IMG/VR virus record: IMGVR_UViG_3300048834_000156
Span: 1 to 52,781 of that record
Direction: 5' to 3' (one strand)
Source: a virus
DNA: 52,781 bases
The notes under the pieces are model-generated. The model ran no database searches, was not told the origin of the DNA, and was given only the letters and a program-made list of their open reading frames with translations. Both the position numbers and the translations under genes were made by a program. The stretch's first letter is position 1. Each line of letters starts with the position of its first letter. Positions 2,521-45,188 of the stretch are shown here, one piece after another.

Positions 2521-2535
2521 ATACCGCGGTATGGA
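2521..2535 (+). promoter_or_regulatory. P-box palindromic promoter/operator
   Basis: ATACCGCGGTAT (2521-2532), a perfect 12-bp palindrome. Its 3' half runs into TATGGA as a -10-like box. ATG 2589 lies 57 bases on, preceded by CCCAAGGAG. It is one of two P-boxes inside the structural half of the genome; both serve the inserted cassette. Confidence 0.75.
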
Positions 2536-2588
2536 AGTGTGATACGGTGCAACCTGTGAACACGGCAACCACCCAAGGAGACGCCGCC

Positions 2589-3002
2589 ATGAACACCACC
2601 GCTCACACACTCGACGACCTGCTCGTCATGTTCGACAGCGACACACCCGGCGCACGACTCGACGCTCTGCGGATCGCCCGCGACCTCGGACTGCGCGACG
2701 ACATGCGCGCCGTACTCGAAGCCCGTCGGGCAGCCGAAGCCCGAACCCGAGCCGCCGACGAGGCGTTTAGCGAGTTCTGCTACCGGCAGTCGCTGTCGAA
2801 CGTGCACCTGCAAGAACTTGCCGACAGCGGCGACCCGCAGGCACGGCAGGCGCAGATCCTGCTCGAACTGCCGACGATCTCGGACCGGATCGCAGCCAAA
2901 GGCTGGATGCACCGGTTCCTCAACGCCACACCCGACGCAGGCCGACCGTCGGACGCTCTGCGGGTCGTGGTGAGCGGCATGATCGCGGGGTACCCGGCAT
3001 GA
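2589..3002 (+). CDS. Hypothetical protein, first gene of the inserted cassette
   Basis: A 137-residue, predominantly helical, charged protein. I recognise no family. ATG 2589 is preferred over the in-frame GTG at 2547 because the conserved CCCAAGGAG ribosome site lies 8 bases upstream, as in the other P-box genes. It is Arg/Ala-rich in residues 30-60, with a possible short coiled coil around EARRAAEARTRAADEAF. It overlaps the next gene by 4 bp (ATGA), so the two are translationally coupled. Confidence 0.75.
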   Translation: MNTTAHTLDDLLVMFDSDTPGARLDALRIARDLGLRDDMRAVLEARRAAEARTRAADEAFSEFCYRQSLSNVHLQELADSGDPQARQAQILLELPTISDRIAAKGWMHRFLNATPDAGRPSDALRVVVSGMIAGYPA

Positions 3003-3166
3003 CGTACCTCTGCCCGATCTGCGAGAACGAGATGACCGACGACGAGGTGCAGAGCGGTGCGATCGCGCTTGTCGTGGACGTCGCCGCCAGCGACCGGCAC
3101 GACGTCGTGATCGTCGAGGCGCACGAGCAGTGCGCGCTCGACTCACCCGACCATCACGTGCGGTAG
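2999..3166 (+). CDS. Zinc-ribbon-like mini protein
   Basis: A 55-residue ORF beginning at ATG 2999 in an ATGA overlap with the upstream stop. The N-terminus reads MTYLCPICENEM, with a CxxC pair. EAHEQC near residues 41-46 could supply a His/Cys second pair, so a single zinc knuckle is plausible. The function is unknown. A terminator hairpin follows 26 bases after its stop. Similar Cys-rich mini proteins recur elsewhere in this genome (4938, 30226, 39210, 41459). Confidence 0.65.
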   Translation: MTYLCPICENEMTDDEVQSGAIALVVDVAASDRHDVVIVEAHEQCALDSPDHHVR

Positions 3167-3192
3167 CCTCGGCAGCGAGCAAGACCCGGAGC

Positions 3193-3228
3193 AGAGATCC
3201 CGGTTCCCTTCGAGGGGCCGGGATCTCT
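3193..3228 (+). terminator. Terminator hairpin, GAGATC type
   Basis: An 11-bp perfect inverted repeat AGAGATCCCGG (3193-3203) / CCGGGATCTCT (3218-3228). The loop itself contains CCCTTCGAGGG. Nearly the same hairpin occurs at 36273-36308, and both are followed by CGCGT and, within about 50 bp, a P-box. Confidence 0.7.
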
Positions 3229-3235
3229 CGCGTAC

Positions 3236-3250
3236 ATACCGCGGTATAGG
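3236..3250 (+). promoter_or_regulatory. P-box palindromic promoter/operator of the glycan cassette
   Basis: ATACCGCGGTAT (3236-3247) followed by AGGTAG. The candidate starts GTG 3253 and ATG 3265 are only 5 and 17 bases away and no Shine-Dalgarno sequence is present, so the mRNA is probably leaderless or nearly so. Confidence 0.7.
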
Positions 3251-3264
3251 TAGTGTCCTCGGCC

Positions 3265-4941
3265 ATGACCAACACCACGCGGTACACGATCATGTACGTC
3301 GGGAACTTCCGCCCGCCGCACTCCACCGAGAACCACGTCTCGCAGGCGCTCCGCAACATCGGCCACGACGTGATCCCGCTCCAAGAGGACGACGCAGCGA
3401 CCTGGGACACGCTGCGAGATGCCCGGCCTGATCTCGTGCTCTGGACCCGCACGTGGTCCCTGCCGGAGTTCGACCAGGTAGGCGTGCTCGACGAGCTGCG
3501 CGCCGCTGGTGTGCCGACGGTCGGCTACCACCTAGACCGGTGGTGGGGTCTGCCTCGTGAGCACCAGGTGCTCGATGAGCCGTTCTTCCGGTGTGACGTG
3601 ATGGTCACCGCCGATGGTGGCCACGACGAGATGTGGGACGCGGCCTGTGTCACGCACTGGTGGTTCCCTCCCGCGGTGCTCGCTGAGCAGGCCGTGCTCG
3701 GCAAGCCGGTCGCCCGTCGCCGGTACCCGGTCGGGTTCGTGGGGAGCTGGCACCGCTACCACCCCGAGTGGCCCTGGCGCACCGAGCTGATCCGGCACCT
3801 GCGCCGCATGTACGGCCGTGAGTTCGTGGCGTGGCCGCAAGGTGGACAGCCAGCGGTGCGAGGCCCGGCTCTGGCCGACGTGTACGCGTCGATCGACGTG
3901 GTGGTGGGTGACTCGTGCCTGGTCGGTGAGGCCTCCCGGTACTGGTCCGACCGCATCCCCGAGACGCTCGGCCGCGGCGGGTTCCTGATCCACCCCTACG
4001 TCGAGGGCATCGAGGACCACTACACCGACGGTGAGCACCTGGTGCTCGTGGAACCTCAGTCGTGGCCAGCGATGCGCGACGCGATCGAGAAGTGGCGGCG
4101 CGACCCTGACGGCCGGGCCGAGATCGCCGCGGCCGGGCGCGCGCACGTGCTCGCCCATCACACATACGAGCACCGCATGACCGAGCTGGTGGAGCGGCTC
4201 GAAGCGGCGCAGATCCTCACCCCGTTCGAGAAGCGGTCCGGGCCCGTCGTCGTGTCGAGCCGTGGGCTGTCCGCTTCGTTCGACCTGCGGCCAGAGAGCA
4301 CCGATGGCACCGTGGTGCGGGAGGTCTGGCACGAGAACGTGTACGGGCTCGAACCTGCCGACGTCGAGGGCAAGGTGGTGCTCGACGTCGGCGCGAACGT
4401 CGGTGCGTTCTCCGTGTGGGCCGCGCTGCACGGTGCGTTGAAGGTGATTGCCGTCGAGCCTGAGCATTCCAATGTCGAGCGGCTGTACCACCACATGAAG
4501 CGCAACGCCGTCGATCTGGTCATGTCGATCGCTGTGGTTGCGGTCAGCGAGGAGGTCGGACCCCGAACGATGACGGTCGTACCCGGCGAGCAGGGCGGAT
4601 CTCAGATGTGGCGGCACGGCCAGCGGCGGGCCGATGACGACCGCGGCAACACGATCGAGGTCGAGACGTGCACGCTTGGAGATCTCATCGCTGACGCCGG
4701 TGGACACGTGGACGTCCTCAAGATCGACATAGAGGGCAGCGAGTACGAGGTGCTCACGCACGCTGCGCAGGTCGGCACGCTGGCTCAGGTGGACCGGATC
4801 GTCGGCGAGTGGCACCCGTGGGTCGGCGACACGAGAGGGTTCGGCGACTGGTTCGCTGGGCTGCTCGACTTCGGTCGGCTCTCGATCATGGGTCATCCCG
4901 ACAAGGGCGGGCAGTTCGAGTGGAAGCGGTACGGGGCATGA
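3265..4941 (+). CDS. Fused glycosyltransferase - FkbM-type methyltransferase
   Basis: A 558-residue two-domain enzyme. Residues 1 to about 320 look like a GT-B glycosyltransferase of the CgeB/glycosyl-transferases-group-1 type: a Rossmann-like N-terminal half, then SDRIPETLGRGGFLIHPYVE and a C-terminal helix with HHTYEHRM. Residues about 350-540 are an FkbM-family SAM-dependent methyltransferase: LDVGANVGAFS around 372-382, VEPEHSN, and KIDIEGSEYEVL around 486-497. The likely role is to add and then O-methylate a sugar. ATG 3265 or GTG 3253 could both be used with the P-box at 3236. It is followed by an ATGA overlap with 4938. It lies between head-tail and tail genes, so the acceptor could be a virion protein or host surface glycan; neither is shown by the sequence. 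Confidence 0.85.
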   Translation: MTNTTRYTIMYVGNFRPPHSTENHVSQALRNIGHDVIPLQEDDAATWDTLRDARPDLVLWTRTWSLPEFDQVGVLDELRAAGVPTVGYHLDRWWGLPREHQVLDEPFFRCDVMVTADGGHDEMWDAACVTHWWFPPAVLAEQAVLGKPVARRRYPVGFVGSWHRYHPEWPWRTELIRHLRRMYGREFVAWPQGGQPAVRGPALADVYASIDVVVGDSCLVGEASRYWSDRIPETLGRGGFLIHPYVEGIEDHYTDGEHLVLVEPQSWPAMRDAIEKWRRDPDGRAEIAAAGRAHVLAHHTYEHRMTELVERLEAAQILTPFEKRSGPVVVSSRGLSASFDLRPESTDGTVVREVWHENVYGLEPADVEGKVVLDVGANVGAFSVWAALHGALKVIAVEPEHSNVERLYHHMKRNAVDLVMSIAVVAVSEEVGPRTMTVVPGEQGGSQMWRHGQRRADDDRGNTIEVETCTLGDLIADAGGHVDVLKIDIEGSEYEVLTHAAQVGTLAQVDRIVGEWHPWVGDTRGFGDWFAGLLDFGRLSIMGHPDKGGQFEWKRYGA

Positions 4942-5186
4942 GCAGCGGCCGGTCGTGTGTGAACTGCACCTTCGCTGCGATGGAGATGGACGACAACGGC
5001 CCGGCGATGGAATGCCATCGGCACCCGCCTGTGTCGCTGCTCGAACCGGTCAAGCCGCTCGACGACAGCGACCCGGAGCTGACAGCCGAGTACGAGACGC
5101 TCGTGCAGATCGAGCAGCCAGGTAGGTATCCGCGGGTCCGTGTCGAGGACTGGTGCGGCGAGTGGAAAGAGGTTGGGTCATGGTGA
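4938..5186 (+). CDS. Cys-rich small protein
   Basis: An 82-residue protein with SCVNCTF at residues 7-13, MECHRHPP at about 23-30 and a C-terminal DWCGEW. The CxxC, CxH and C spacing suggests a metal site. Starts are coupled: ATG overlaps the stop of the methyltransferase fusion, and the end overlaps the next glycosyltransferase start at 5180. No family recognised. It may be an accessory of the surrounding sugar enzymes. Confidence 0.7.
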   Translation: MSSGRSCVNCTFAAMEMDDNGPAMECHRHPPVSLLEPVKPLDDSDPELTAEYETLVQIEQPGRYPRVRVEDWCGEWKEVGSW

Positions 5187-6217
5187 AACTGGGGATGCTG
5201 GCACGGGCAGAGGACCGCGGGCTCGGGATCATGCTGTGGGAGTTCGCCCGGCACATGCGACCTGACCGCACATTGGTCGTGGACATGGGCGAGCTGGGCC
5301 GCGGGTTCCCGATGCACCTGGACCGCTACGACGAGCCGACCGTCACCGCGTTCGATGGGCAGCGCTTCACCGACGAGACGACGGTGAAGGCGTGGCTCGC
5401 CGGGCTCGACGTCGTGTACGTCGCTGAGACCTGGTACGACGAGCGATTCCCAGACTGGTGCCATGACCTCGGGGTCCGATGCGTGCTCCACGTGATGCCC
5501 GAGTTCTGGCGATGGGGACACAGGCACATGCCCGCGGTAGTCACGTGGGCTCCGACGTCGTGGCGGCTCTCCACGCTGCCGCCACGCACCCAGATCGTGC
5601 CGGTGCCGGTGCCGCTCGACAGGTGGCCGATGCCGGTCGTCTCTGACGGTGGGCCGCTGCGCGTGCTCCACGTCGCTGGCAAGCGGGCCGCTGGTGACCG
5701 CAACGGCACGACGCTGTTCGCTGCCGCGCTCGCCCGGACCTCTGCACCGATGCGGGTGACGGTCTCCACACAGGACGACCGGCTACCGCGGCTCGGACGA
5801 GATCTCGCCGGGCTCGACGTCGAGACGCGGATCGGTGGCGTCGGCAACTACTGGGAGCAGTACGCCGACCATGACCTGCTCGTGATGCCGCGCCGGTACG
5901 GCGGTCTGTCGCTCCCGGTGAACGAGGCCGCGGGCGCAGGGCTCGGACTGGTGCTCTCGGCGTGCCGCCCGAACGTGCACGAGTGGCCATGCGAAGCGGT
6001 CAAGGTCGATGCCCGCGGCGCGATGGCCACGCCTGCCGGGACGATCCCGTCGCATGCGGTCTCGACGCCAGCTCTGGCCCGGCTGCTGAACGACCTCGCA
6101 CGAGATCCCGAGCGGGTCGCTGGGCTGGCGCGCGCGGCTCGTCGCTGGGCTGTGTCGCGCTCGTGGACCGAGATGCTCCACGAGTACCGGTGCGCTCTTG
6201 AGGCGGCGTGCGAGTGA
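5180..6217 (+). CDS. GT4-like glycosyltransferase
   Basis: A 345-residue GT-B fold glycosyltransferase candidate. The N-terminal half (residues 1-150) has alternating strands and helices ending with PVPVPLDRWPM. The C-terminal half begins LRVLHVAGKRAAGDRNGT, typical of the inter-domain region of GT4 enzymes, and carries DLLVMPRRYGGLSLPVNEAAG, equivalent to the E-x7-E nucleotide-sugar motif with the first acidic residue replaced. ATG 5180 and GTG 5183 are both possible starts. It is the second sugar enzyme of the cassette and is coupled to both neighbours. Confidence 0.8.
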   Translation: MVKLGMLARAEDRGLGIMLWEFARHMRPDRTLVVDMGELGRGFPMHLDRYDEPTVTAFDGQRFTDETTVKAWLAGLDVVYVAETWYDERFPDWCHDLGVRCVLHVMPEFWRWGHRHMPAVVTWAPTSWRLSTLPPRTQIVPVPVPLDRWPMPVVSDGGPLRVLHVAGKRAAGDRNGTTLFAAALARTSAPMRVTVSTQDDRLPRLGRDLAGLDVETRIGGVGNYWEQYADHDLLVMPRRYGGLSLPVNEAAGAGLGLVLSACRPNVHEWPCEAVKVDARGAMATPAGTIPSHAVSTPALARLLNDLARDPERVAGLARAARRWAVSRSWTEMLHEYRCALEAACE

Positions 6218-7203
6218 AGATCGGCCGGTACGTCTCGATGCGCCACTACGCCGAGCACATCGACCCGGTGTGGTCAGCGTTGCCCGAGTCGGCCCGTGGT
6301 GTGGCGTGGGCTGCTCCTGGCGTGTCTCGTGGAGCAACAGTGCCAAACCACAACCTGTCGCCTGAGAACGCAAACCAGCCGATGATCGTGGCGTCGTGGC
6401 CTGATGCGGTCACGTGGCCGGTGCGGACGCGAGAGCTGATCTACATGGAGCACGGCGCAGGGCAGACCTACGCCGGAGATCCAGCGATGGCGACCGCGCC
6501 CGGCTGGTCCGGCACCCGAGACCCGACGCTCGAACGGGTGCTGCTGTTCCTCTGCCCGTCGGTGACTGTGGCCACCAGGTGGCGCGCCCGGTACCCCGGT
6601 CGGGCCGTGGCCGTCGGGTGCCCGAAGCTCGACGCATGGCATCGCCAGCCGCGCGGAGTACCGCGCGCACGGCCAGCCGTCGCGGTCACGTTCCACTGGG
6701 ACTGCCAGCTCGGACCCGAGACCCGCTCGGCGTGGCGTCACTACGACCGGCACCTGGCCGACCTCGCCAGATGGTGCCGGACGAACGACGTCGAGCTGCT
6801 CGGGCACGGGCACCCGCGCATGTGGTCCGTCATCCGTCGCCGCTGGGAGCAGCTCGGCGTCGAACCTGTCCAGCACCTCTCGACTGTGCTCAACCGTGCG
6901 CATGTGCTCGTGGCCGACAACACCTCCGCGGCGTACGAGTTCGCGTCGCTCGGTCGGCCGGTCGTCGTGGCCAACGCGCCGTGGTACCGCCGCTACGTCG
7001 AGCACGGGCTGAGGTTCTGGTCTCACCCGCCCGGCCGGATGATCGACCACGGGGCCGAGCTGGTCGGTGCCGTGGCCAACGCTCTCGCTGACCCTGACGC
7101 AGACCGCGAGATCAGAGACCACGCCGTCGCAGCCGCCTACCATGCGTGTGACGGCCGAGCTGCCGAGCGTGCCGCTGCCGCCATCATGGAGCTGATCGCA
7201 TGA
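6214..7203 (+). CDS. GT-B transferase, CDP-glycerol glycerophosphotransferase-like
   Basis: A 329-residue protein. Motifs are YMEHGAGQTY (near residue 73), a central LGHGHPRMW, and VLVADNTSAAYEFASLGRPVVV (about 230-252). This layout resembles the TagB/TagF group of GT-B enzymes that move polyol-phosphate or sugars. The match is by pattern only, so a generic glycosyltransferase remains possible. GTG 6214 gives the 4-bp GTGA overlap used throughout this genome; GTG 6208 is an alternative. It is the third and last enzyme of the inserted cassette and overlaps the next gene by 4 bp. Confidence 0.65.
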   Translation: MKIGRYVSMRHYAEHIDPVWSALPESARGVAWAAPGVSRGATVPNHNLSPENANQPMIVASWPDAVTWPVRTRELIYMEHGAGQTYAGDPAMATAPGWSGTRDPTLERVLLFLCPSVTVATRWRARYPGRAVAVGCPKLDAWHRQPRGVPRARPAVAVTFHWDCQLGPETRSAWRHYDRHLADLARWCRTNDVELLGHGHPRMWSVIRRRWEQLGVEPVQHLSTVLNRAHVLVADNTSAAYEFASLGRPVVVANAPWYRRYVEHGLRFWSHPPGRMIDHGAELVGAVANALADPDADREIRDHAVAAAYHACDGRAAERAAAAIMELIA

Positions 7204-9364: not shown

Positions 9365-12184
9365 GTGATCGTCGGTGACGCATACGTCAAGATCAGACCT
9401 GACGGCCGCGGGTTCTCCGACGAGGCCGAGCGGTCGCTGCTCGGCTCGATGGGCTCCCTCGCCAAGAAAGCCGCCGTCGTGTTCGGGTCGGCGTTCGTTG
9501 CCGATCAGGCGGTGCGCGGCATCGCCGAGGCGGTCGGTCTCGCCTCTGATCTGAGCGAGTCGATGAGCAAGGCCGAGGTCGTGTTCGGCTCGGCGTCGGC
9601 GGCGGTCAAGGAGTTCGCCGCTGCTGCGCCTGACGCTCTCGGTCAGACCGAGGCTCAGGCGCTCGAAGCAACAGGCACACTCGGCAACCTGCTGCGAGCT
9701 GTGGGGCTCAGCGAGGAAGCGTCCGCGGATCTCTCGACGTCGATGGTCACGCTCGCCAGCGACCTCGCATCGTTCAACAACACCGAAGCGAGCGAAGCTC
9801 TAGACGCTCTACGCGCCGGGCTGGTGGGCGAGACCGAGCCACTCAAGCGGTTCGGCGTCAACCTCAACGAGAACCTGCTCAAGCAGAAGGCGTGGCAGCT
9901 CGGGCTCACGGACGGCTCGGGTGTGCTCTCAGCGAACGCGAAGGCGCAGGCGGCATACGCGCTCATCATGGAGCAGACGTCGCTCGCTCAGGGCGACTTC
10001 GCTCGGACGTCTGACGGGCTCGCCAACCAGCAACGCATCCTCAAGGCGAACGTCGATCAGGCGAAGGCGGCGTTCGGTGCTGGGCTGCTGCCGGTGCTCG
10101 AACGCCTCGCTCCGGTGGCCGGGGATGCTGTTCGCTCGCTCGCTCCGTTCCTAGAGCAGCTCGGCGCAGGGCTCGGCAACGCGGTGGCTGGCGCGGTCGA
10201 TGGCGTGACCGCTGCGATCGACGTCGTGGAGAGGTTCTCGGCGGCGTTGTCCGGGGTGAACGTCCCGGCGTCGATAGCGGTGGAGCTGGGCAAGATCTTC
10301 GGCTGGATGGAGGACAGCTCGCAGGTCGATGCGATGGCCACCGTGTTCGAGCGGCTCTCGACTGCTGGTGTGATCCTCACCGGAGCGCTGACGTCGATCG
10401 CTGGCGAGGTCACGACCCTTGCACCGTCGATGGAAGACCTCACCCGGATATGGACCGAGCAGGAGGACGTTCTACTGCCGCTCACCGCTGGCGTGGTCAC
10501 GTTCGTCGCTGCGCTCGGCACCTTGTCGCAGGTCAGCGGCGTTCTGTCGTCTCTACAGACCGGGTTCGCTCTGCTCGGCCCGGCGCTCTCGAAGGCGCTG
10601 GCACCGCTACTCGCCAACCCGGCCGGGCTCATCGTCGCCGGGATCGTCGCGCTCGGTGCTGCACTGTTCGTCGCGTACCAGAAGATCGAGCCGTTCCGTA
10701 ACGCCGTCGATGCCGTTGCTCGTGTCCTGCGAGACGTAGCGGTCGCTGCGTTCGATCAGGTCTCCGAAGCGGTCCGCAACTTCGGGCCCACGCTCGCCGA
10801 GCTGGGCTCGATGCTCTCCGGTGTAGGTGAGACCCTGCGGTCGTTCGCTGGGTCGGCCATCGACGCGGTGTCACCGTTCGTGGGGTGGGTGCAGGAGAAC
10901 GTGTTCCCGCTGTTCGCCGCGGTCGCTGACTTCGCCGACGCGCTGGGCGACAGGATCTCAGACGTTGCGGGCATCATCGCCTCTGTGGTCAGCACGCTCG
11001 CGCCGATCGTGCGGAAGGCGTTCGAGATCTGGTGGAAGGTCGTCGGGCCGCTAGTGACCGGCGTGCTCCGTCAGATCTGGAACACCATCACCACCACCGC
11101 CGCAGTTCTGACCGACGTTCTCGGCGTGGCGTTCGACGCGGTAGGCCTGATCGTCTCGACCGTGTTCAACGGGATCAAGGCCGTCGTCGAGTCGGTGCTC
11201 GGCACCTTGACGGGCGTGTTCACCGTGTTCGCCGGTGTCCTGCGCGGCGACTTCGGCAAGGTGTGGGATGGGCTACAGCAGATCGTGCGCGCGCCGCTCG
11301 AAGCGATCCTCGGGTTCGTGCAGTCCACGTTCGGCAACGTGCTCGACTTCCTCGGCACGCTGCCAGGTCGGCTGCTCTCGATCGGCTCGACCCTGTTCGG
11401 CGGGCTCGTGGACGCCATCGGCATCACGCTCGGCACCGTCGTCGGCGTGGTCACAGGTGCGTTCGGCGGGGTGCTCTCGTTCCTCGCAGGGCTGCCCGGC
11501 CAGATCGTCACAGCCGCGGGCGACCTGTTCGGGTTCATCGGCACTCAGGCGCTGAACGTCGTCACCGCGGTCGGTGAGACGCTCGCCTCGCTGCCGGGCA
11601 AGGTCGGTGAGCTGGCCGGGTCGCTGCTCACGCAGGGCGTCGAGCTGGGCAAGGCGGTGCTGAACGGCATCATCGCCGGGCTGTCTGGGCTCGCTGACCT
11701 CGCCGTTGGTCTCGTCGGTGACCTGACCAGCGCGGCCAAGGACATAGCGGGCGGGATAATCAACGCGCTCATCGACGGCCTGAACAGCGTCTTCCCTGAC
11801 GAGATCGGCCGTGTCGAGGTGGCCGGGTACACCGTGTTCCCAGGTCTGGACCTGCCAGACAACCCGATCCCTCGGGTCAAGCTCGCGCGCGGTGGCCGCG
11901 TCCGGGCCCGCGCCGGTGGCGTCGCCGCCACGCTCGCCGAAGCCGGGTTCGACGAGCTGGTCCTCTCCACGAACCCTGCGATGAGGCAGCGCAACGCCGG
12001 GCTACTCGCCGGTACCGGCATGGCTGACCCGCTCGTCGTGAACGCGATGATCGCTCGACTCGAAGCGATCGCCAACCGGCCGCGGGTCGGTCAGCTCACG
12101 CTCGCCAACCCCGGTCCGCCAGTGCGTCACGCGATGGACTTCCTCAGCGCGCTCGATGACGCCGAGTGGATGGAGAGCCTCTAA
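9365..12184 (+). CDS. Tape measure protein
   Basis: A 939-residue, Ala/Gly/Val-rich, helical protein; the longest gene of the tail region, following the frameshifted chaperone as expected. Residues 20-200 form the typical N-terminal tape-measure region (MSKAEVVFGSASAAVKEF, FNNTEASEALDAL). The middle contains several long hydrophobic segments (for example LLANPAGLIVAGIVALGAA near residue 417) usable for genome delivery through the membrane. Repeated short modules follow toward residue 800. At roughly 0.15 nm per residue the tail would be about 140 nm. GTG 9365 is set by the leaderless box upstream. Confidence 0.9.
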   Translation: MIVGDAYVKIRPDGRGFSDEAERSLLGSMGSLAKKAAVVFGSAFVADQAVRGIAEAVGLASDLSESMSKAEVVFGSASAAVKEFAAAAPDALGQTEAQALEATGTLGNLLRAVGLSEEASADLSTSMVTLASDLASFNNTEASEALDALRAGLVGETEPLKRFGVNLNENLLKQKAWQLGLTDGSGVLSANAKAQAAYALIMEQTSLAQGDFARTSDGLANQQRILKANVDQAKAAFGAGLLPVLERLAPVAGDAVRSLAPFLEQLGAGLGNAVAGAVDGVTAAIDVVERFSAALSGVNVPASIAVELGKIFGWMEDSSQVDAMATVFERLSTAGVILTGALTSIAGEVTTLAPSMEDLTRIWTEQEDVLLPLTAGVVTFVAALGTLSQVSGVLSSLQTGFALLGPALSKALAPLLANPAGLIVAGIVALGAALFVAYQKIEPFRNAVDAVARVLRDVAVAAFDQVSEAVRNFGPTLAELGSMLSGVGETLRSFAGSAIDAVSPFVGWVQENVFPLFAAVADFADALGDRISDVAGIIASVVSTLAPIVRKAFEIWWKVVGPLVTGVLRQIWNTITTTAAVLTDVLGVAFDAVGLIVSTVFNGIKAVVESVLGTLTGVFTVFAGVLRGDFGKVWDGLQQIVRAPLEAILGFVQSTFGNVLDFLGTLPGRLLSIGSTLFGGLVDAIGITLGTVVGVVTGAFGGVLSFLAGLPGQIVTAAGDLFGFIGTQALNVVTAVGETLASLPGKVGELAGSLLTQGVELGKAVLNGIIAGLSGLADLAVGLVGDLTSAAKDIAGGIINALIDGLNSVFPDEIGRVEVAGYTVFPGLDLPDNPIPRVKLARGGRVRARAGGVAATLAEAGFDELVLSTNPAMRQRNAGLLAGTGMADPLVVNAMIARLEAIANRPRVGQLTLANPGPPVRHAMDFLSALDDAEWMESL

Positions 12185-12658
12185 GTGGACACGCTCGACC
12201 CGAGCTGCACGACCGGTGACGGTGAGGTGTTCGTCAACGGTGCGACCCTCCACCGGCTGGCGTTCTGCGTGCTCGACGCTTCACCGCTCGCCGACGGCAT
12301 CTACAACCTGCGCGGACAGAACCGGCTCATCCCCGGCGTGCCCGGCGAGCGCGCCATGCCGAAGCGTGCGACGACCACCGACTACGTGCTCCGCATGGTC
12401 GTGGACGGCCGCTACAGCGTGTCCACCGGCGCACCGATGCTCGACGAGATCCAAGGCCTACGGCTGGCGAAGGACTGGCTCAGAGGCAACCTGCACACGC
12501 CACCAGGTGGCACGAGCCAGCGCACGGTGCAGGTGGTGTTCCCGTGGGGCGGGTCACGGTCGTGCGCTGCTCACACGAGCATCGCGTTCGGGCAACGAGT
12601 CGGCCCGGTCCAGCGGGCGCTGCTCACGGTCAGTGTGCCGCTCGGGGTAGTCGCCTAG
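12185..12658 (+). CDS. Distal tail / minor tail protein
   Basis: A 157-residue protein, GTG 12185 immediately after the tape measure stop. GEVFVNGATLHRLAF at the start, then NLRGQNRLIPGVPGERAMPKR, resembles distal tail proteins that carry an N-terminal beta barrel (..NG..L....RG.N..VPG..G). This protein would form the ring at the tail end below the tape measure. Its position, directly after the tape measure, fits. Confidence 0.7.
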   Translation: MDTLDPSCTTGDGEVFVNGATLHRLAFCVLDASPLADGIYNLRGQNRLIPGVPGERAMPKRATTTDYVLRMVVDGRYSVSTGAPMLDEIQGLRLAKDWLRGNLHTPPGGTSQRTVQVVFPWGGSRSCAAHTSIAFGQRVGPVQRALLTVSVPLGVVA

Positions 12659-12669
12659 CATCCCGAGGC
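12654..12669 (+). promoter_or_regulatory. Late-box promoter, leaderless (tail fibre)
   Basis: CCTAGCAT (12654-12661), 8 bases (CCCGAGGC), ATG 12670. The TAG of the -10 box is also the stop codon of the preceding distal-tail gene. Confidence 0.55.
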
Positions 12670-13932
12670 ATGTACCCGCACGCAGGCCGCTACGGCACCG
12701 ACTCGTTCGTTCGACCGTCAGGCCGACCGGTTCCAGCCGGAACCGCGGTGATGGTCTACGAGCGAGGCACGACCACGCTCGCTGAGCTGTGGACCGACCG
12801 AGACCGCACCTCCGCTGCACCGAACCCGGCAGAGATCGGCGAGCGCGGGAACTTCTACTTCTACGCCGAGCCCGGCATTTACGACCTGTTCGTGGAGAGC
12901 ACCACCGTGCGGGTGACAGCGGTGCCAGACCCGGCAGACACCGAGGGCGGCGGCGGTGGCGCGGTGGCGTCCGTGAACGGCCAGGTTGGCGCGGTGGTGC
13001 TCACCGCGCCAGACGTCGGTGCGGTGGCACCCGGTGACCTCGGGTCGGCGGCGACTGCTGACGTGACCGACTTCGCCACGGCCGAGCAGGGCACGAAGGC
13101 AGACACCGCGGTCCAGCCCGGTGACCTCGGGTCGGCGGCTACCGCAGATGCATCCGACTTCGCGAGCGCGGCGCAGGGCGGCAAGGCCGACACCGCCATT
13201 CAGCCTGCCGACATGCTCGCCGAGAACGTCGATTACCAGTACGACGTGGAGACCGTTCTGCCGGTCTCCACCGTGCTCGACCTCACCCGCAATGCGATCA
13301 TGGACCTGACCTCAGGCAAGGAGGACGTCGGGGTCGCGGCCGGTCGCTCCCTGGCCGGGCTACTCGCTGACCGCCCGTCCGCTGCGGGACTGTCCGACGG
13401 TGCCCGGTACTTCGCAGCCGACGACTCAGGTGGGCGTCTCTATGTGGCCCGCAGCGGAGCGTGGGCCGCTGCCGCGCCTCCTGTCGTTGGTGCCCGCACG
13501 CTGGCCGTGGCGAACCCGTCCTCGATCGCAGCGGTGTCGGTGGCAGCGAACGCTGTCCGGGTACCGGAGTTGACCACGGCCGCGTTCGTGATGCCGTCGT
13601 CAGGGACCGTGCTGGTGTTGATCCCGCCGCTCGGGATCACGGGCGCGGGCGCCGACGTCGACTTGACGACCGTGCAGGTTCGCTGGTCGACCAACGACTT
13701 CTCGTCGTCGCAGATCATCTATGAACAACAGGCGATAGGTAAGTCCGGTGCGCCGTTCTACATCGAATCTGTGTCGGGCGGCGCAGCCTTGCTGACCCCT
13801 GGTGGTGTTACGCCTCCGTCCGCTGGGGCGTCGGTGCGGGTCGGGATGTACCTGTCCCGGCCGGACACGTTCTCGATGACCGTCCTCAAGGTCGGGAACA
13901 TTCACCCGTTCCTCATGGTCCAGGTGTCGTAG
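12670..13932 (+). CDS. Tail fibre / receptor-binding protein
   Basis: A 420-residue fibre-type protein. Residues 1-90 form a small beta domain with VMVYERGTTTLAELWTD, as in fibre attachment domains. A Gly-rich linker (EGGGGGA) is followed by the collar-like SVNGQVGAVVLTAPDVGAVA. Two 29-residue repeats come next (see 13030-13203), then a C-terminal head with ARYFAADDSGGRLYVARSGAW. The last ~150 residues are beta-rich and probably trimeric. ATG 12670 is fixed by the leaderless box. Neighbouring hydrolase and lectin-like genes make this the host-recognition module. Confidence 0.8.
   Translation: MYPHAGRYGTDSFVRPSGRPVPAGTAVMVYERGTTTLAELWTDRDRTSAAPNPAEIGERGNFYFYAEPGIYDLFVESTTVRVTAVPDPADTEGGGGGAVASVNGQVGAVVLTAPDVGAVAPGDLGSAATADVTDFATAEQGTKADTAVQPGDLGSAATADASDFASAAQGGKADTAIQPADMLAENVDYQYDVETVLPVSTVLDLTRNAIMDLTSGKEDVGVAAGRSLAGLLADRPSAAGLSDGARYFAADDSGGRLYVARSGAWAAAAPPVVGARTLAVANPSSIAAVSVAANAVRVPELTTAAFVMPSSGTVLVLIPPLGITGAGADVDLTTVQVRWSTNDFSSSQIIYEQQAIGKSGAPFYIESVSGGAALLTPGGVTPPSAGASVRVGMYLSRPDTFSMTVLKVGNIHPFLMVQVS
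13030..13203 (+). repeat. 87-bp tandem repeat inside tail fibre gene
   Basis: Two units of 87 bp (13030-13116 and 13117-13203), each encoding 29 residues of the form PGDLGSAATAD..DFA.A.QG.KADTA.Q. The first ~22 bases of each unit are identical. A third unit degenerates after PADM. Such repeats are common fibre shafts and can vary in number by recombination. Confidence 0.8.
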
Positions 13933-15541: not shown

Positions 15542-15544
15542 CCG

Positions 15545-18425: not shown

Positions 18426-18426
18426 A

Positions 18427-18440
18427 CCTACACTCTCGGC
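18427..18440 (+). promoter_or_regulatory. Late-box promoter, leaderless
   Basis: CCTACACT (18427-18434), 6 bases (CTCGGC), ATG 18441. The stop of the preceding gene is 2 bases upstream of the box. Confidence 0.55.
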
Positions 18441-33781: not shown

Positions 33782-34170
33782 AGCACGACAACCAGCACAC
33801 ACCGCCCGGCTCGTTCTCCACGACCGAGGTGATCGAGGCCGCGGGGATCTCGTACCGCATGCTCGACGGATGGCGACGACGCGGGTACGTCGCACCGTCG
33901 CTGCGCCGCCGCTACACCGGCTCAGGCAACATGATCAGATGGTCACAGGCCGACGTCGATCACGTGCTGGCGATCGCCGAGCGGGTCCGCTGGGGCCTCA
34001 CACTCGAAGCCGCCGCCCGCACCAGCGACCCCGGCCAGGTGCCACCCGCCTACGATCCACGCCATGACCACGCCACGCCGTCTGACATACCGCCCGCTCG
34101 ACTCGCTGAAGGTCGCGAAGTGGAACCCGAAGGACCACGACTCGACTGCGATTGCTGGCTCGATAGCTGA
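33766..34170 (+). CDS. MerR-like DNA-binding protein
   Basis: A 134-residue protein. FSTTEVIEAAGISYRMLDGWRRRGYVAPS near residues 20-48 (quoted in two parts in families: TTEVIEAAGISYR and LDGWRRRGYV) is a MerR-type HTH; GSGNMIRWSQADVDHVLAI follows. MerR-like proteins act as transcription regulators or excisionase-like factors. Its 3' end overlaps the methyltransferase start by 107 bp. Confidence 0.75.
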   Translation: MDDELEHDNQHTPPGSFSTTEVIEAAGISYRMLDGWRRRGYVAPSLRRRYTGSGNMIRWSQADVDHVLAIAERVRWGLTLEAAARTSDPGQVPPAYDPRHDHATPSDIPPARLAEGREVEPEGPRLDCDCWLDS

Positions 34171-35476
34171 GCACGGGTTCGTCACACCGTTCGTGGTGGA
34201 CGACCGCTCAGACCGTCTCGTCGCCGGGCACGGCCGACGAGACGAGCTGCTCAAGGCGAGAGCGGCAGGCGACGAACCACCCGACGGTGTGATGGTCGAT
34301 GACGCAGGGATCTGGCTCGTGCCTGTCGTTGAGGGCTGGCGGTCACGCAACGACGACCAGGCAGACCGGTTCGTCGTGGCCGACAACCGCGCCACAGAGG
34401 CAGGCGGATGGAAGCGCGACGAGCTAGCCACGAAGCTCGCCAAGTGGGCTGACCGCGACAAGCTCGACGGCACCGGCTGGTCACCGAAGGACGCGCGCGC
34501 CCTGCTCGATCTCGTACGGCCAGATCCACCAGAGCCAGAGCCCGAACCAGAGCCCGAGCCCGAACCACCTGCCGAGCCGGTCACCGTCAAGGGCGACGTG
34601 TGGCTACTCGGTCCGCACCGGCTCATGTGCGGCGACGCCACCGACGCAGCGCAGGTGGCGCGGCTCATGGGTGATGGTGGGCCGGTGAGCATCGGGTTCA
34701 CCTCCCCGCCGTACGCCAGCCAGCGCACCTACGACCCCGAGAGCGGGTTCGTGCCGATCCACCCTGACGAGTACGTCGAGTGGTTCCGCCCGGTCTCAGA
34801 CGGTGTGCGCGAACACCTGGCACCTGACGGCTCGTGGTTCGTGAATATCAAGGAGCACGCCGAAGATCTGGTTCGTCATCGCTATGTGCTCGATCTGTTC
34901 GTGGACCATCTCGATCGAGGGTGGCGGTACTTGGACATGTTCGTGTGGCCACGCATCGGGTTCCCGATCGACCCGCGCAACGCTGGCAGGTTCAAGAACG
35001 CGTGGGAACCGGTGATGCACTTCACGCTGAACCCTCACCACAAGTTCCGCCCGGAGGCGGTGATGGTGGACGGCGATGGTGCGTTCACCTACGACCCCGA
35101 GCGGAAGCTGCAAGGCAACCAGACAACAGGGTTCATCGGCGTCGGCCGAGACGGCGCGAAGCCGGGCAAGGTGTTTCCATCCAACGTCCTGCCGAACTTC
35201 GGTGTTGCTGCCTCTGGCACAGAGCACTCAGCCGCCTTCCCGGTCAAGCTGCCCGAGTGGTTCGTCCGAGCGTTCACAGACGAAGGCGACCGCGTGTACG
35301 ACCCGTTCGGCGGCTCCGGCACCACGATCATCGCAGCGCACAGGAACAACCGAGTCGGGCTCAGCATGGAGCTATCCGAGCGGTACTGCGACGTGATCTG
35401 CGAGCGGTGGCAGCGCACCACCGGTGAGCAGCCGGTGCTCGAACGCACCGGCGAGCCGCACGACTTCACCACCTGA
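34064..35476 (+). CDS. ParB-domain / DNA methyltransferase fusion
   Basis: A 470-residue fusion. Residues 1-110 form a ParB/Srx-like nuclease-type N-domain (SLKVAKWNPKDHDS, LVAGHGRRDELLKA, VADNRATEAGGW). A PEPEPEP linker (about 156-168) leads to a beta-class DNA methyltransferase: DVWLLGPHRLMCGDAT, catalytic TSPPY at 213-217 and SAM motif DPFGGSGTT at 413-421. Such fusions modify phage DNA and the ParB domain is thought to guide or tether. It lies about 9 kb from the other methyltransferase. ATG 34064 sits inside the upstream gene. Confidence 0.85.
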   Translation: MTTPRRLTYRPLDSLKVAKWNPKDHDSTAIAGSIAEHGFVTPFVVDDRSDRLVAGHGRRDELLKARAAGDEPPDGVMVDDAGIWLVPVVEGWRSRNDDQADRFVVADNRATEAGGWKRDELATKLAKWADRDKLDGTGWSPKDARALLDLVRPDPPEPEPEPEPEPEPPAEPVTVKGDVWLLGPHRLMCGDATDAAQVARLMGDGGPVSIGFTSPPYASQRTYDPESGFVPIHPDEYVEWFRPVSDGVREHLAPDGSWFVNIKEHAEDLVRHRYVLDLFVDHLDRGWRYLDMFVWPRIGFPIDPRNAGRFKNAWEPVMHFTLNPHHKFRPEAVMVDGDGAFTYDPERKLQGNQTTGFIGVGRDGAKPGKVFPSNVLPNFGVAASGTEHSAAFPVKLPEWFVRAFTDEGDRVYDPFGGSGTTIIAAHRNNRVGLSMELSERYCDVICERWQRTTGEQPVLERTGEPHDFTT

Positions 35477-35481
35477 TCCTG

Positions 35482-35511
35482 TTGCGGCGCAGGTTGCAAC
35501 CGCGGTATGGT
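35482..35511 (+). promoter_or_regulatory. P-box promoter, -35/-10 visible
   Basis: TTGCGG (35482-35487), 18-bp spacer, TATGGT (35506-35511) with ACCGCGGT 35499-35506 overlapping the -10. CCCAAGGAG precedes GTG 35553. Confidence 0.75.
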
Positions 35512-35552
35512 TCCGGTCGTCAACCAACCCGCACCACCCAAGGAGTGCAACC

Positions 35553-36323: not shown

Positions 36324-36352
36324 TTGCACCGCTCGCGAAACCGCGGTATGGT
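36324..36352 (+). promoter_or_regulatory. P-box promoter, -35/-10 visible
   Basis: TTGCAC (36324-36329), 17-bp spacer, TATGGT (36347-36352). ACCGCGGT 36340-36347. CCCAAGGAG precedes ATG 36394. Confidence 0.8.
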
Positions 36353-36393
36353 TTCGCTGTTCCAACAAACCTGATCCACCCAAGGAGATCAAC

Positions 36394-37434: not shown

Positions 37435-37463
37435 TTCACGGAACCTCCATACCGTGGTATGGT
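37435..37463 (+). promoter_or_regulatory. P-box promoter
   Basis: TTCACG (37435-37440), 17-bp spacer, TATGGT (37458-37463). ATACCGTGGTAT 37449-37460. CCCAAGGAAGG precedes ATG 37494. It starts the small-gene train to about 42 kb. Confidence 0.75.
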
Positions 37464-37493
37464 TCTGTTCTCCTCACCCAAGGAAGGAACCAC

Positions 37494-38438: not shown

Positions 38439-38722
38439 CTTGCCTGAACGACACAGACGGCGACGGCGACTGCCACATCTGCCACCGCCTGCCTGACGGC
38501 TGCACCAGACGACAGCTCGCCGCTCTGCTCACAGAGCCCGAGCGTGAGGCAGCGGGACGGCTGCGAGCGTGGCTCGACGACGCCACCGAGCTATCCGCGC
38601 CGACCGGCCAGGCCGACGCATCCCGGTTCCACACTGCGTGGGTCGGCCGCAAGGACGAGCCGACGACGCTGTCTCTGCACGACCTGCGCGCCGTGCTCGA
38701 AGCGATCGAGAGGGAAGCATGA
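38435..38722 (+). CDS. Hypothetical small protein with Cys cluster
   Basis: A 95-residue protein. MTCLNDTDGDGDCHICHRL and GCTRR give C-x(9)-C-x2-C plus one more Cys near the N-terminus, a possible zinc knuckle. The rest is helical (EREAAGRLRAWLDDATEL, LHDLRAVLEAIEREA). No family recognised. Confidence 0.65.
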   Translation: MTCLNDTDGDGDCHICHRLPDGCTRRQLAALLTEPEREAAGRLRAWLDDATELSAPTGQADASRFHTAWVGRKDEPTTLSLHDLRAVLEAIEREA

Positions 38723-39210
38723 CCGAGGGGATCAGAGCTATCACGGTCCGTCAGCCGTGGGCTCGTGCGATCCTGTTCTACGGCAAGAACATCGAGAACC
38801 GCGGCTCCGGGTTCTCGAAGCGATACCGGGGTCCGCTGCTGATCCACGCCGCTGGCGCATGGTCAGAGCGTGGCGCTCTGGACACACGGGTCAGAGCGGC
38901 ACGCAACGAGGTACTCGTTCGAGCTGGCGGGCCCGGCTCGCTCGGACCGGTCCCGCCGTCCGGTGTGCGCTCAGCGATCATCGGTGTCGTGGACGTCGTA
39001 GATGCTCACGCAGCGTCGGGCTGCTGCGAACCGTGGGGCGAACGCACCTACACCGGCTCAGACGGCAAGGACGTGCTCGACGTCACTCACCTGGTGCTCG
39101 AACGGCCACGACTGCTGCGCCACCCGGTGCCGTGCTCTGGTCGGCTCGGGCTCTGGACACCACCCGCCGACGTCCTCGCCGAGGTCACCGCACAGCTCGG
39201 CGCACTGTGA
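38719..39210 (+). CDS. ASCH-domain protein
   Basis: A 163-residue protein. RAITVRQPWARAILFYGKNIENR and YRGPLLIHAAG, then SAIIGVVDVVDAH and LGLWTPP are the ASCH signature. The fold binds RNA or modified nucleotides and is common in phages; some members act as nucleoside hydrolases. ATG 38719 overlaps the previous stop. Confidence 0.85.
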   Translation: MTEGIRAITVRQPWARAILFYGKNIENRGSGFSKRYRGPLLIHAAGAWSERGALDTRVRAARNEVLVRAGGPGSLGPVPPSGVRSAIIGVVDVVDAHAASGCCEPWGERTYTGSDGKDVLDVTHLVLERPRLLRHPVPCSGRLGLWTPPADVLAEVTAQLGAL

Positions 39211-41737: not shown

Positions 41738-41985
41738 CCGGGTTCGCCGAACCGAGCGCGTGCAGAGTCGTCCGGCTCTCAGAGGACGCACCTTCACGCT
41801 GTGGCCGCGCCAGCTCGTGGACGATCGAAGGCGTAGACCCGACCGGGCTCGAACCGCTCACGACCGACGCCGCATGGAACTTCGACGACCGCCAAGAGGC
41901 AGAGTCGGAGATCGCATGGTTCTGCGCCTGGCATGGCCTGCCGCCTGGCCTCCCGGTCGTCGTCGTCACCCATACCGCGGTATAG
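41728..41985 (+). CDS. Hypothetical protein ending inside a P-box
   Basis: An 85-residue protein. The central part ASSWTIEGVDPTGLEPLTTD and AESEIAWFCAWHGLP has no family I recognise. The last codons CAT ACC GCG GTA TAG are the palindrome itself, so operator and reading frame are shared. Confidence 0.65.
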   Translation: MAVTGFAEPSACRVVRLSEDAPSRCGRASSWTIEGVDPTGLEPLTTDAAWNFDDRQEAESEIAWFCAWHGLPPGLPVVVVTHTAV

Positions 41986-41988
41986 AAT
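41972..41988 (+). promoter_or_regulatory. P-box promoter/operator of the exonuclease gene
   Basis: ATACCGCGGTAT (41972-41983) followed by AGAAT; -10 TATAGAAT 41981-41988. It includes the TAG stop of the upstream gene. A CCCAAGGGAG site precedes ATG 42020. Confidence 0.8.
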
Positions 41989-42019
41989 CGCTCAACCAAC
42001 CCAAGGGAGAAGAACCCTC

Positions 42020-42811: not shown

Positions 42812-43087
42812 GTGGCCACCGTCCGCGTACCCGACGACCTGAACGAGATGCTCAAGGCTCGTGCCGCTGAGTGCGGGCAGAGCGTCACCGCGTTCGTGCA
42901 CGACGCCATCCGCGCCGCGCTCGACCCGGCACCAGAGCCCGCACCAGCTCCACCACCACCAGCTCGTACCCCGCCGCGGTCGAGCCTCAGCAGACCGAAG
43001 CGGGTTCGCTCGATCGTCTCTGGCTGCCCGCACCCTGTGAACCGCCGGATCGGTGGTGTCTGCGCCGTGTGTGGCACGAAGGTTTAG
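42812..43087 (+). CDS. Ribbon-helix-helix protein with C-terminal Cys motif
   Basis: A 91-residue protein. TVRVPDDLNEMLKARAAECGQSVTAFVHDAI, here given in parts, forms a CopG/Arc-type ribbon-helix-helix at residues 2-35. A Pro/Ala linker follows. The C-terminus SGCPHPVNRRIGGVCAVCGTKV has a zinc-finger-like Cys set. It is a candidate DNA-binding regulator and could recognise a palindrome such as the P-box; no direct evidence. GTG 42812. Confidence 0.7.
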   Translation: MATVRVPDDLNEMLKARAAECGQSVTAFVHDAIRAALDPAPEPAPAPPPPARTPPRSSLSRPKRVRSIVSGCPHPVNRRIGGVCAVCGTKV

Positions 43088-43174: not shown

Positions 43175-43204
43175 TTGCACCCAGGTTCCATACCGCGGTA
43201 TGGT
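43175..43204 (+). promoter_or_regulatory. P-box promoter, leaderless variant
   Basis: TTGCAC (43175-43180), 18-bp spacer, TATGGT (43199-43204), and ATG 43211 only 6 bases after the -10. Palindrome ATACCGCGGTAT 43190-43201. It is the clearest case that the palindrome overlaps a real -10 and that the mRNA can start at the ATG. Confidence 0.8.
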
Positions 43205-43210
43205 GAGCGC

Positions 43211-43426
43211 ATGAGCACCACGCACACCCGCCGCCACGCTTCCCGCCCGTACACGGTGACCACGAGCACCGGTCGTCGGACCCGCTGCGCCACCGAGCGA
43301 TCCGCCTGCGCTGCTCTCGGACGCATGCTCGACCAGCCCGGCGTGACCGGCTCGATCGAGCGCTACGGCGAGACCGTCCTCACCGCGGTCGGCACCTCGC
43401 TCGGCTGGACTCGCACCACCCCTTAG
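43211..43426 (+). CDS. Small basic protein
   Basis: A 71-residue Thr/Arg-rich protein. STTHTRRHASRPYTVTTSTG and ERSACAALGRMLDQ are the main features; it reads as beta strand, helix, strand, with no family recognised. ATG 43211 is set by the leaderless promoter. A compound hairpin separates it from TerL. Confidence 0.7.
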   Translation: MSTTHTRRHASRPYTVTTSTGRRTRCATERSACAALGRMLDQPGVTGSIERYGETVLTAVGTSLGWTRTTP

Positions 43427-43485
43427 ATCTGCTGGCCTCGGCCGGGGCTCCCGCCACCCCAAGAGCCGAACTAGCAGCCAGCAGC

Positions 43486-43528
43486 AGCCCGCCCGGCCAC
43501 CATCCCCCCCGGTGGCATGAGGCGGGCT
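43486..43528 (+). terminator. Compound terminator hairpin before TerL
   Basis: Outer arms AGCCCGCC (43486-43493) / GGCGGGCT (43521-43528), inner arms GCCACC (43496-43501) / GGTGGC (43511-43516). The alternative TerL start ATG 43517 falls inside it, which favours ATG 43568. Confidence 0.65.
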
Positions 43529-43567
43529 GTTGCGCGTCTCGGGTCAGGTTCTGGCAGCATGACCGGC

Positions 43568-45154
43568 ATGCCAGCTCGTGCGCTCCGTCCGGTCGCTGAC
43601 CCGATGGACGAGCTACGAGACCTCATCGCAGCCATGACCCCGGAGGATCTCGAAGCGTTCTGCGGCGGGCTCGACCACGCAGACCTAGACCTCGTAGAGC
43701 AGATCCTTACGACGCTGCGCCACGCCAGATGGGTGCCGCGCCCGCACCAGATCCCGCCGCCAGAGTCTGACCCGTGGGACGTGTGGCTGCTGCTCGCGGG
43801 TCGTGGAGCTGGCAAGACCGACGCATGCGCTCACGAGATGGACCGCCACGCCAAGGGCCCGCCGTGTTTCCCTGGCATCCCTGGTGGGCACCGCATGTCG
43901 ATCATCGCTCCGACGCTCGGCGACGCGTCGGACGCGTGCGTGCACGGTCCCTCAGGTCTCATGGCGCACAATCCGACCGTGGTCGAGCGGACCCGCAAGG
44001 GCGGCACGTTCGTCACGTGGCAGAACGGGGCCGAGGCCAAGCTGTTCGGCGCGTACACCAAGCAGGACGTCGAGCGGCTCCGTGCCGGTGGTAACCGGTG
44101 CTTCGTGTGGGTCGAGGAACTGGCCGCGTGGCGGTACCTGCGTGCCTGCTGGAACCACATGATGTTCGGCCTGCGGCTCGGACCTCACCCGCGGGTCATC
44201 GCGTCCACCACCCCTAAGAACCGGCCGCACCTCAAGAAGATCATCGCCGCCGAGACCACCGCGGTGAGCCGGGCGACCACAGACGACAACCCGCATCTCG
44301 ATGCACGGGTACGCGCCAAGCTGCTCGATGCATACGCCGGTACCCGGCTCGGACGGCAGGAGCTGCTCGGCGAGCTGCTCGAAGACGTCGAGGGCGCGCT
44401 CTGGTCTGACGAGATGATCGAGGTCTCTGGCCGGGTGGACGAGGCACCACGACTGCGCCGCATCGTCGTCGCTGTAGACCCGAGCTGGGGTACCACCAAC
44501 GACGAGTGCGGCATCGTCGTAGCCGGGGTCGGGTGGGACAAGCTCGGGTACGTCCTCGCCGACTACAGCGTCCGTGGCGGGCCTCGCATGTGGGCCGAGC
44601 GCGCCGCCGATGCGTACTGGTCGTTCAAGGCGGACAAGCTCGTCGCCGAAGGCAACTTCCAAGGTGAGCAGGTCCGGCTCGCCATGCGCCAGGTCGAGCA
44701 CCCGCAAGGCCCGCCGATGTTCGACCTCGTGAACGCGTCCCGCGGCAAGCAGCTCAGAGCTGAGCCGGTCGTGATGCTCTACGAACAGAGGCGGATCAAG
44801 CACGTCGGCCGGTTGCCGATGCTCGAACACCAGATGACCCATTGGGTCCCGACCGAGCCCGCGGAGGAGCACGACGACGACGAGGGCGAGGTCGTCACCG
44901 CCGCGGGTGCTGGCGAAGGCCAAGGCGGCGACGAGCACGAGGGCAACGAGGACAACCCCGAGACGGTCTCTAACTCACCTGACCGGGTGGACGCTCTCGT
45001 GTTCGCTCTCACCGAGCTAATGCTCGGCAACAGCGGCCCGGCGTCGGTGCGCCGCCCTGGTGGTGGCCAGCCCGCGCCACGTGGAGACAGCCCAGCACCA
45101 CGCAGGAAGTCTCCTGCGGTACGTCGTCCTGGTGGTGGCCGACCTCGGCGATAG
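43568..45154 (+). CDS. terL: Terminase large subunit (ATPase/nuclease)
   Basis: A 528-residue packaging motor. Walker A is GRGAGKT at residues 78-84. Walker B is CFVWVEELAAW around 178-188, with the catalytic Glu doublet, and a coupling motif STTPKNRP lies near 215-222. The RNase H-like nuclease begins RRIVVAVDPSWGTTNDE near 296-312, the first metal Asp in VAVDPS. The second acidic residue is in LVAEGNFQG and the last Asp in DRVDALVFAL. The C-terminus has an acidic stretch and an Arg/Pro/Gly tail. ATG 43568 follows CAGCAT-N7 and avoids the hairpin. It pumps DNA into the prohead through the portal. Confidence 0.9.
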   Translation: MPARALRPVADPMDELRDLIAAMTPEDLEAFCGGLDHADLDLVEQILTTLRHARWVPRPHQIPPPESDPWDVWLLLAGRGAGKTDACAHEMDRHAKGPPCFPGIPGGHRMSIIAPTLGDASDACVHGPSGLMAHNPTVVERTRKGGTFVTWQNGAEAKLFGAYTKQDVERLRAGGNRCFVWVEELAAWRYLRACWNHMMFGLRLGPHPRVIASTTPKNRPHLKKIIAAETTAVSRATTDDNPHLDARVRAKLLDAYAGTRLGRQELLGELLEDVEGALWSDEMIEVSGRVDEAPRLRRIVVAVDPSWGTTNDECGIVVAGVGWDKLGYVLADYSVRGGPRMWAERAADAYWSFKADKLVAEGNFQGEQVRLAMRQVEHPQGPPMFDLVNASRGKQLRAEPVVMLYEQRRIKHVGRLPMLEHQMTHWVPTEPAEEHDDDEGEVVTAAGAGEGQGGDEHEGNEDNPETVSNSPDRVDALVFALTELMLGNSGPASVRRPGGGQPAPRGDSPAPRRKSPAVRRPGGGRPRR

Positions 45155-45160
45155 ATGCTG

Positions 45161-45188
45161 TACCGCGGTATCGGTACCGCGGTACCCT
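45161..45188 (+). promoter_or_regulatory. Tandem P-box with TACCCT -10
   Basis: ACCGCGGT at 45162-45169 and again at 45176-45183, centres 14 bp apart. The second lies in a 14-bp perfect palindrome GGTACCGCGGTACC (45173-45186). TACCCT (45183-45188) can serve as -10. Confidence 0.75.

Follow-up and report, generated by a model that had tools for sequence, protein, structure and literature searches.

A dispersed palindrome at phage promoters looks like part of a phage-wide gene switch whose dyad sequence changes from virus to virus

Why should a viral genome carry the same short palindrome, always in one orientation, in front of a dozen of its genes? The question is raised by the IMG/VR record IMGVR_UViG_3300048834_000156, analysed here over its whole length of 52,781 nucleotides (the window), in which the core ACCGYGGTAT recurs between positions 2,521 and 45,188. 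On balance, the sites are probably sigma-70-type promoters combined with dyad operators of a single predicted dimeric repressor, most likely phage-encoded, that would time operons or set their level, and comparison with two relatives gives what looks like a phage-wide gene switch within which the dyad sequence changes from virus to virus. The window has about 68% GC and nearly all of its called genes on the + strand, and a 127-bp terminal repeat gives it the look of a complete circular assembly. Judged by terminase and DUF932, its best relatives among phages are those of Streptomyces and Microbacterium, which makes an actinobacterial host likely. Gene calls were made for this analysis, and the number of genomes compared is small.

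All twelve cores named in the original prediction were recovered exactly, on the + strand and at their predicted coordinates, as were second cores at 27925 and 45176. Allowing one mismatch at most, the core matched 29 times against 4.3 +/- 2.0 in dinucleotide shuffles (maximum 12), and it ranked first among the 10-mers of the window for over-representation under an order-3 Markov model. Ten of the twelve site centres are intergenic in a genome of which 12% is non-coding (P = 3e-8). No copy of the core occurred in 394 kb of DNA from other phages, almost all of it high-GC, so the idea survived the possibility that the motif is equally common in other phages of this kind. In full, the element forms a 16-bp dyad, CYAWACCG-YGGTATRG (hyphen at the centre), with a right arm stricter than the left: GGTAT and a G at +11 are invariant and the left flank is variable. 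This asymmetry stems partly from the search string itself, which does not force the T at the sixth position of the abutting TATGGT (7/12, P = 7e-4). With further near-cores at 20847, 21906 and 28691, a tandem second core or near-core is found at five of the twelve sites, the spacing always being 12 or 14 bp (P = 3e-4). The sites are as follows.

2519-2534, + strand: dyad CTATACCGCGGTATGG, before gene 2589-3002; displaced -10 box TACGGT at 2543
3234-3249, + strand: dyad ACATACCGCGGTATAG, before the glycosyltransferase-FkbM gene (3265); -10-like TAGTGT at 3251
20831-20846, + strand: dyad CCATACCGTGGTATGG, -10 box TATGGT at 20842, near-core TCCGCGGT at 20847; before the Mu Gam-like gene at 20899
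21890-21905, + strand: dyad ATAAACCGTGGTATGG, -10 box TATGGT at 21901, near-core at 21906; before the RecT-like gene at 21938
27925-27950, + strand: double core ACCGCGGT at 27925 and 27939, 14 bp apart, -10 box TATGGT at 27946; before gene 27984 and within the final codons of the VRR-NUC gene 27596-27991
28699-28714, + strand: dyad CTAAACCGCGGTATAG, -10 box TAGAAT at 28712, near-core ACCCCGGT at 28691; before the helicase gene at 28748
35482-35511, + strand: promoter with -35 box TTGCGG at 35482, dyad 35495-35510, -10 box TATGGT at 35506; before gene 35553
36324-36352, + strand: promoter with -35 box TTGCAC at 36324, dyad 36336-36351, -10 box TATGGT at 36347; before the DUF932 gene at 36394
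37447-37463, + strand: dyad CCATACCGTGGTATGG with -10 box TATGGT; before gene 37494
41970-41988, + strand: dyad CCATACCGCGGTATAG, -10 box TAGAAT at 41983; before the exonuclease gene at 42020
43175-43213, + strand: promoter with -35 box TTGCAC at 43175, perfect 16-bp dyad CCATACCGCGGTATGG at 43188-43203, -10 box TATGGT at 43199; ATG at 43211
45158-45188, + strand: double core at 45162 and 45176, 14 bp apart, displaced -10 box TACCCT at 45183; before gene 45214, 8 bp past the terminase gene, and identical in L009, a 4.4-kb record from a different sample that is 100% identical to the window

The right half of the palindrome had been said to run into a -10-like box in each case. A flush TANNNT box is indeed present at nine of the twelve sites (seven TATGGT and two TAGAAT), and at the remaining three (2523, 3238 and 45162) the box lies 13, 6 and 14 bp further downstream, so that a -10-like box is found near 12/12. 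The proposed -35 boxes TTGCGG at 35482, TTGCAC at 36324 and TTGCAC at 43175 stand, at 18, 17 and 18 bp from TATGGT; a TTGC-type -35 box is seen at these 3/12 sites, and a universal TTGACA-like box was rejected because likeness to TTGACA at -35, averaged over all twelve sites, was no better than chance. A distance of 30-57 bp to the start codon had been proposed for most sites; the core-to-start distance is 27-66 bp at eleven sites, and 43192 differs in that its ATG falls on the predicted +1 (43211), making the open reading frame 43211-43426 (71 aa, no family match) possibly a leaderless candidate.

Between dyad and gene the window also carries a special ribosome site, ACCCAAGGAG, present in six exact copies and one with a single mismatch, every one of them lying between a dyad and its gene. 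It had been expected at most sites and is exact at 6/12, or present at 8/12 counting variants; its CCCAAGG occurs upstream of eight of the twelve dyad genes and of none of the 54 other called genes (Fisher P = 9e-8). Pairing with 16S rRNA is not expected for the CCC of this site.

2571-2580, + strand: ACCCAAGGAG, start-associated ribosome site
20882-20891, + strand: ACCCAAGGAG, ribosome site
21918-21927, + strand: ACCCAAGGAG, ribosome site
28728-28737, + strand: ACCCAAGGAG, ribosome site
35536-35545, + strand: ACCCAAGGAG, ribosome site
36378-36387, + strand: ACCCAAGGAG, ribosome site
37476-37485, + strand: ACCCAAGGAA, one mismatch to the ribosome site
41999-42009, + strand: ACCCAAGGGAG, ribosome site with one inserted base

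The same layout of dyad, -10 box and CCC-type ribosome site, built on different dyad sequences, was found in two complete relatives, G007 (IMGVR_UViG_3300041409_000651; syntenic with the window, helicase 56% and terminase 32% identical) and G008 (IMGVR_UViG_3300049581_000045; helicase 54% identical). On the + strand of G007 there are about a dozen ribosome sites of the CCCAAGGA type; before eight of them stands TCGGC(TAC), a half-site of the inverted repeat GTAGCCGA-CT-TCGGCTAC, which mostly runs into TACNNT or TAGGGT. In G008 the dyad GATAC-N4-GTATC mostly runs into TATCGT, TATCAT or TACACT; three sites have TTGCAC, TTGCGA or TTGCGT 17-18 bp upstream, and the ribosome site is CCC(C)GAGGAAGG. 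When the 27 listed sites of the window, G007 and G008 were pooled, a -10-like TANNNT was found near all 27, flush at 20 and displaced at seven (by 13-14 bp at six and by 6 bp at window 3238), and a TTG 17-19 bp upstream, always as TTGC, at 7/27 against a background of about 2%. The helicase and the Gam/RecT operon are preceded by dyads in all three genomes, and the exonuclease and the post-terminase slot have them in the window and G007. The DNA itself thus shows the dyad and where it stands (in promoter context, between genes and linked with the ribosome site), as well as the architecture of the relatives, and a constant promoter slot with a changed recognition sequence is what a co-evolving regulator would be expected to leave as its trace.

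Searches elsewhere returned few carriers of these elements. In IMG/VR, ATACCGCGGTATGGT gave three single matches and ACCGYGGTAT-N8-38-CCCAAGGA gave 15, mostly of lower GC, none comparable in either case; a search with the G007 half-site plus ribosome site returned G007 as the only real case, the rest being scattered single matches. BLASTN of the right half of the window against INPHARED gave no match, and the terminase relatives G001-G003 hold 0 copies of the window motif.

Each site would accordingly pair a sigma-70-type phage promoter with a dyad operator, in most cases with ACCCAAGGAG behind them. The 16-bp dyad would be bound by a single dimeric DNA-binding protein, most likely a product of the phage, which would cover either the -10 box (centre near -15) or the interval between -35 and -10 (centre near -29) and so block RNA polymerase. 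In this way it would jointly determine when or how strongly the replication, recombination, nuclease and small accessory operons are expressed, together with the glycan cassette. We infer binding of a protein to the dyad, repression on binding and the phage origin of the regulator, for which the gene at 28466 comes first. Several points weigh against this reading. Most sites lack a recognisable -35 box, so an accessory factor could still be required. The relatives that bear the layout are all distant (32-56% identity), and the near-identical record covers 4.4 kb at 100%. G007 and G008 were picked out by inspection from about a dozen relatives, several others of which are without the layout, and the P values given here therefore concern sites within genomes and not the choice of genomes. 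Finally, helix-turn-helix (HTH) proteins of the 28466 kind also occur in G001, which is without the layout, making the order of the candidate regulators listed below a ranking and not an identification.

28466-28702, + strand: first candidate, a 78-aa coiled-coil and HTH protein with relatives in G007, G008 and G012
33754-34170, + strand: second candidate, a MerR-type winged-helix protein with a relative in G007 only
42812-43087, + strand: weak candidate, a ribbon-helix-helix protein with a relative in neither G007 nor G008

Three regulators had been proposed, at 28466, 42812 and 33766 (the MerR-like gene), and all of them stay candidates; comparison favours the HTH protein, leaves the MerR-like protein possible and weakens the ribbon-helix-helix protein. 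The HTH protein is the best candidate, with the MerR-like protein second. The G007 relative of the HTH protein is encoded directly upstream of the G007 dyad and helicase, and its G008 relative lies at 38497-38724 (hidden Markov model of three members, E = 1.4e-4). A single-sequence AlphaFold model of the window protein gave a long helix and a terminal helix (pLDDT 88), with which a fold search returned no significant match. The MerR fold of the second candidate is backed by Foldseek (best match CvkR), and no relative of this protein was found in G008.

The original prediction had placed the palindrome over the core promoter as an operator or as the site of a dedicated activator; the operator-like element is well supported by the layout of G007 and G008, and the activator is disfavoured by the two -10 registers. 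An activator or sigma-like factor of the phage, standing in for the missing -35 box at factor-dependent (middle) promoters, is nonetheless the rival that survives best, although we consider it unlikely. The chance-level -35 region across the twelve sites would suit such a factor, as would the match of the HTH protein to a PHROG sigma-factor family (8e-5) and, weakly, to a late-activator family. However, the dyad lies on or abuts the -10 box at 20 of the 27 sites, where an activator would hinder polymerase, and seven sites have both -35 and -10 boxes. The distance from dyad to -10 box also shifts between two registers inside each genome, mostly 13-14 bp apart, and an activator would have to meet polymerase with a fixed face and at a fixed distance; the flush or displaced -10 boxes of the window, G007 and G008 suit the geometry of a repressor better. 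Nor do the sites resemble MerR-activated promoters, in which the dyad is centred in a 19-20 bp spacer clear of the -10 box: the dyad centre lies about 3.5 bp from the -10 box in the window and G008 and 6.5 bp from it in G007, and the -35/-10 spacers of the window are 17-18 bp.

Binding of the dyad by a host transcription factor, through which phage genes would track the state of the host, is less probable still. It draws on the phage-encoded regulators being candidates only, and different hosts of the three phages might account for their different dyads. It would however require nearly the same layout, ribosome-site partner and gene positions to have arisen three times around different host factors, and among 84,980 bacterial and archaeal genomes the composite element had a single match, in a Bacteroidota contig, roughly what chance would give.

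A shade less credible again are operators of an immunity repressor, like the phiC31 inverted repeats or the cluster A stoperators. The conserved inverted repeats of the Streptomyces phage phiC31 are operators of its c repressor. As in the window, they are a private dyad of an actinophage, dispersed at lytic operons in about 16 copies that lie mostly between genes; the same k-mer method, for which they served as positive control, recovered these CCTACTCACGTGAGTAGG repeats. They differ in being another, longer dyad, linked to lysogeny and found also throughout the structural genes, and their 683-aa repressor has no relative in the window, nor was one found in the other two phages. Searches of the window, G007 and G008 gave no tyrosine integrase or serine recombinase (PF00589, PF00239) and no HTH_3 or Cro/C1-type repressor, which argues for a lytic-cycle regulon rather than immunity. 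The relative G001, with integrase and HTH_3 genes, lacks the window motif. Timing of lytic expression is thus a better guess than lysogeny, and lysogeny genes may possibly have escaped detection. The stoperators of cluster A mycobacteriophages are likewise repressor sites spread across a phage genome but are described as asymmetric sequences to which a monomer binds and which affect elongation (PMC9283540), in contrast to a dyad confined to promoters.

Very improbably, the palindrome is a modification site or a promoter/ribosome-site cassette that has been copied: CCGCGG has the form of a restriction-type palindrome and two DNA methyltransferases are encoded in the window, but three sites read CCGTGG, GCCGCGGC is even more frequent (26 copies), other dyads fill the same place in G007 and G008, and the distance and spacer sequence between dyad and ribosome site vary. 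The two methyltransferase genes (N6/N4 type) lie at 25183-26460 and 34064-35476, the second being fused to a ParB-like domain. Two further ideas were dropped, namely a leader peptide starting at the ATG inside TATGGT, which is not present at all sites, and, without a folding run, an RNA hairpin, for which the contiguous 12-bp palindrome permits a 4-bp stem only.

For the predicted repressor operators, the closest known kind is the pair of start-associated sequences (SAS) and extended SAS (ESAS) of cluster K mycobacteriophages, the phiC31 repeats being the other close kind. Like the window sites, SAS/ESAS are dispersed copies that share one orientation, precede starts and lie mostly in the non-structural half; the SAS is a conserved ribosome site that extends past rRNA pairing, by the argument applied above to CCC, and the ESAS is an inverted repeat over a SigA-like promoter with a consensus that varies by phage group (PMC3203893, PMC11373665). 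What these elements do has been an unanswered question since 2011, and no regulator of them is known (PMC3203893, PMC11373665). In the window, too, an inverted repeat overlies SigA-like -35/-10 elements of mostly non-structural genes, and the dyad is private and dispersed between genes as in phiC31. The sequences differ, the SAS consensus being GGGATAGGAGCCC in cluster K against ACCCAAGGAG here, and the ESAS dyad being TGTTGA-N4/5-TCAACA in Pixie against ACCGCGGT. Cluster K has paired imperfect repeats of about 17 bp with a 4-13 bp spacer, which in the Pixie sequence, read directly, lie over -35 and -10, whereas the window mostly has one compact 16-bp dyad abutting -10, with second or near-cores at 5/12. 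Cluster K phages are temperate except TM4, unlike the window, G007 and G008 with no recognisable lysogeny genes, and no relatives of the HTH, MerR-like or ribbon-helix-helix proteins were found in the Pixie segment. Since it departs from both the sequence and the repeat-pair definitions, the window element is taken to act like an ESAS/SAS pair and is not counted as a member.

That three phages outside cluster K combine an operator over a promoter with a special ribosome site suggests a general scheme of regulation in actinophage-like viruses, and the combination of a dyad of its own in each phage with a common small HTH candidate names proteins to be tested. The compact, private and mutually distinct promoter/operator pairs are also on offer as expression tools for actinobacteria. 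More speculatively, and with rather little confidence, we can picture an immunity-free lytic actinophage chassis in which a small coiled-coil HTH protein is master regulator of about a dozen promoters and the operator is exchanged wholesale (three unrelated dyads) while promoter, ribosome site and targets are kept, perhaps through competition in co-infection.

The sites of the structural half had been thought limited to the glycan cassette, which did not hold: in addition to the two sites of the cassette, that half contains or adjoins 20835, at the module border before Gam, and 45162, in the gap that separates terminase from portal. The cassette itself (3265-7203) comprises a glycosyltransferase-FkbM methyltransferase fusion (3265), preceded by a dyad promoter, and a CDP-glycerol glycerophosphotransferase-like gene (6214).

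Among other contigs, palindrome arrays in L025 (ACTATAGT) and L029 (GGGCATCAAAGC) were rejected as tandem or coding repeats; L029 (IMGVR_UViG_3300012167_000015) also has, near 12030, a GGGCATCAAAGCCGGC-type repeat array that is apparently coding. In the 87-kb phage contig L201, a dispersed TATGCTAAGCTAGCTTTCATG-like element stands before small genes at 5746, 6430, 7084, 8862, 13199 and 15919, often with an ATG very near. The 146-kb contig L024 (IMGVR_UViG_3300036851_000176) carries at 9797-19115 a repeated palindrome akin to ATCACCCGATCGGGTGAT upstream of leaderless-looking starts of the CGATACTNAGGGCATGG form, possibly another dispersed regulatory set.

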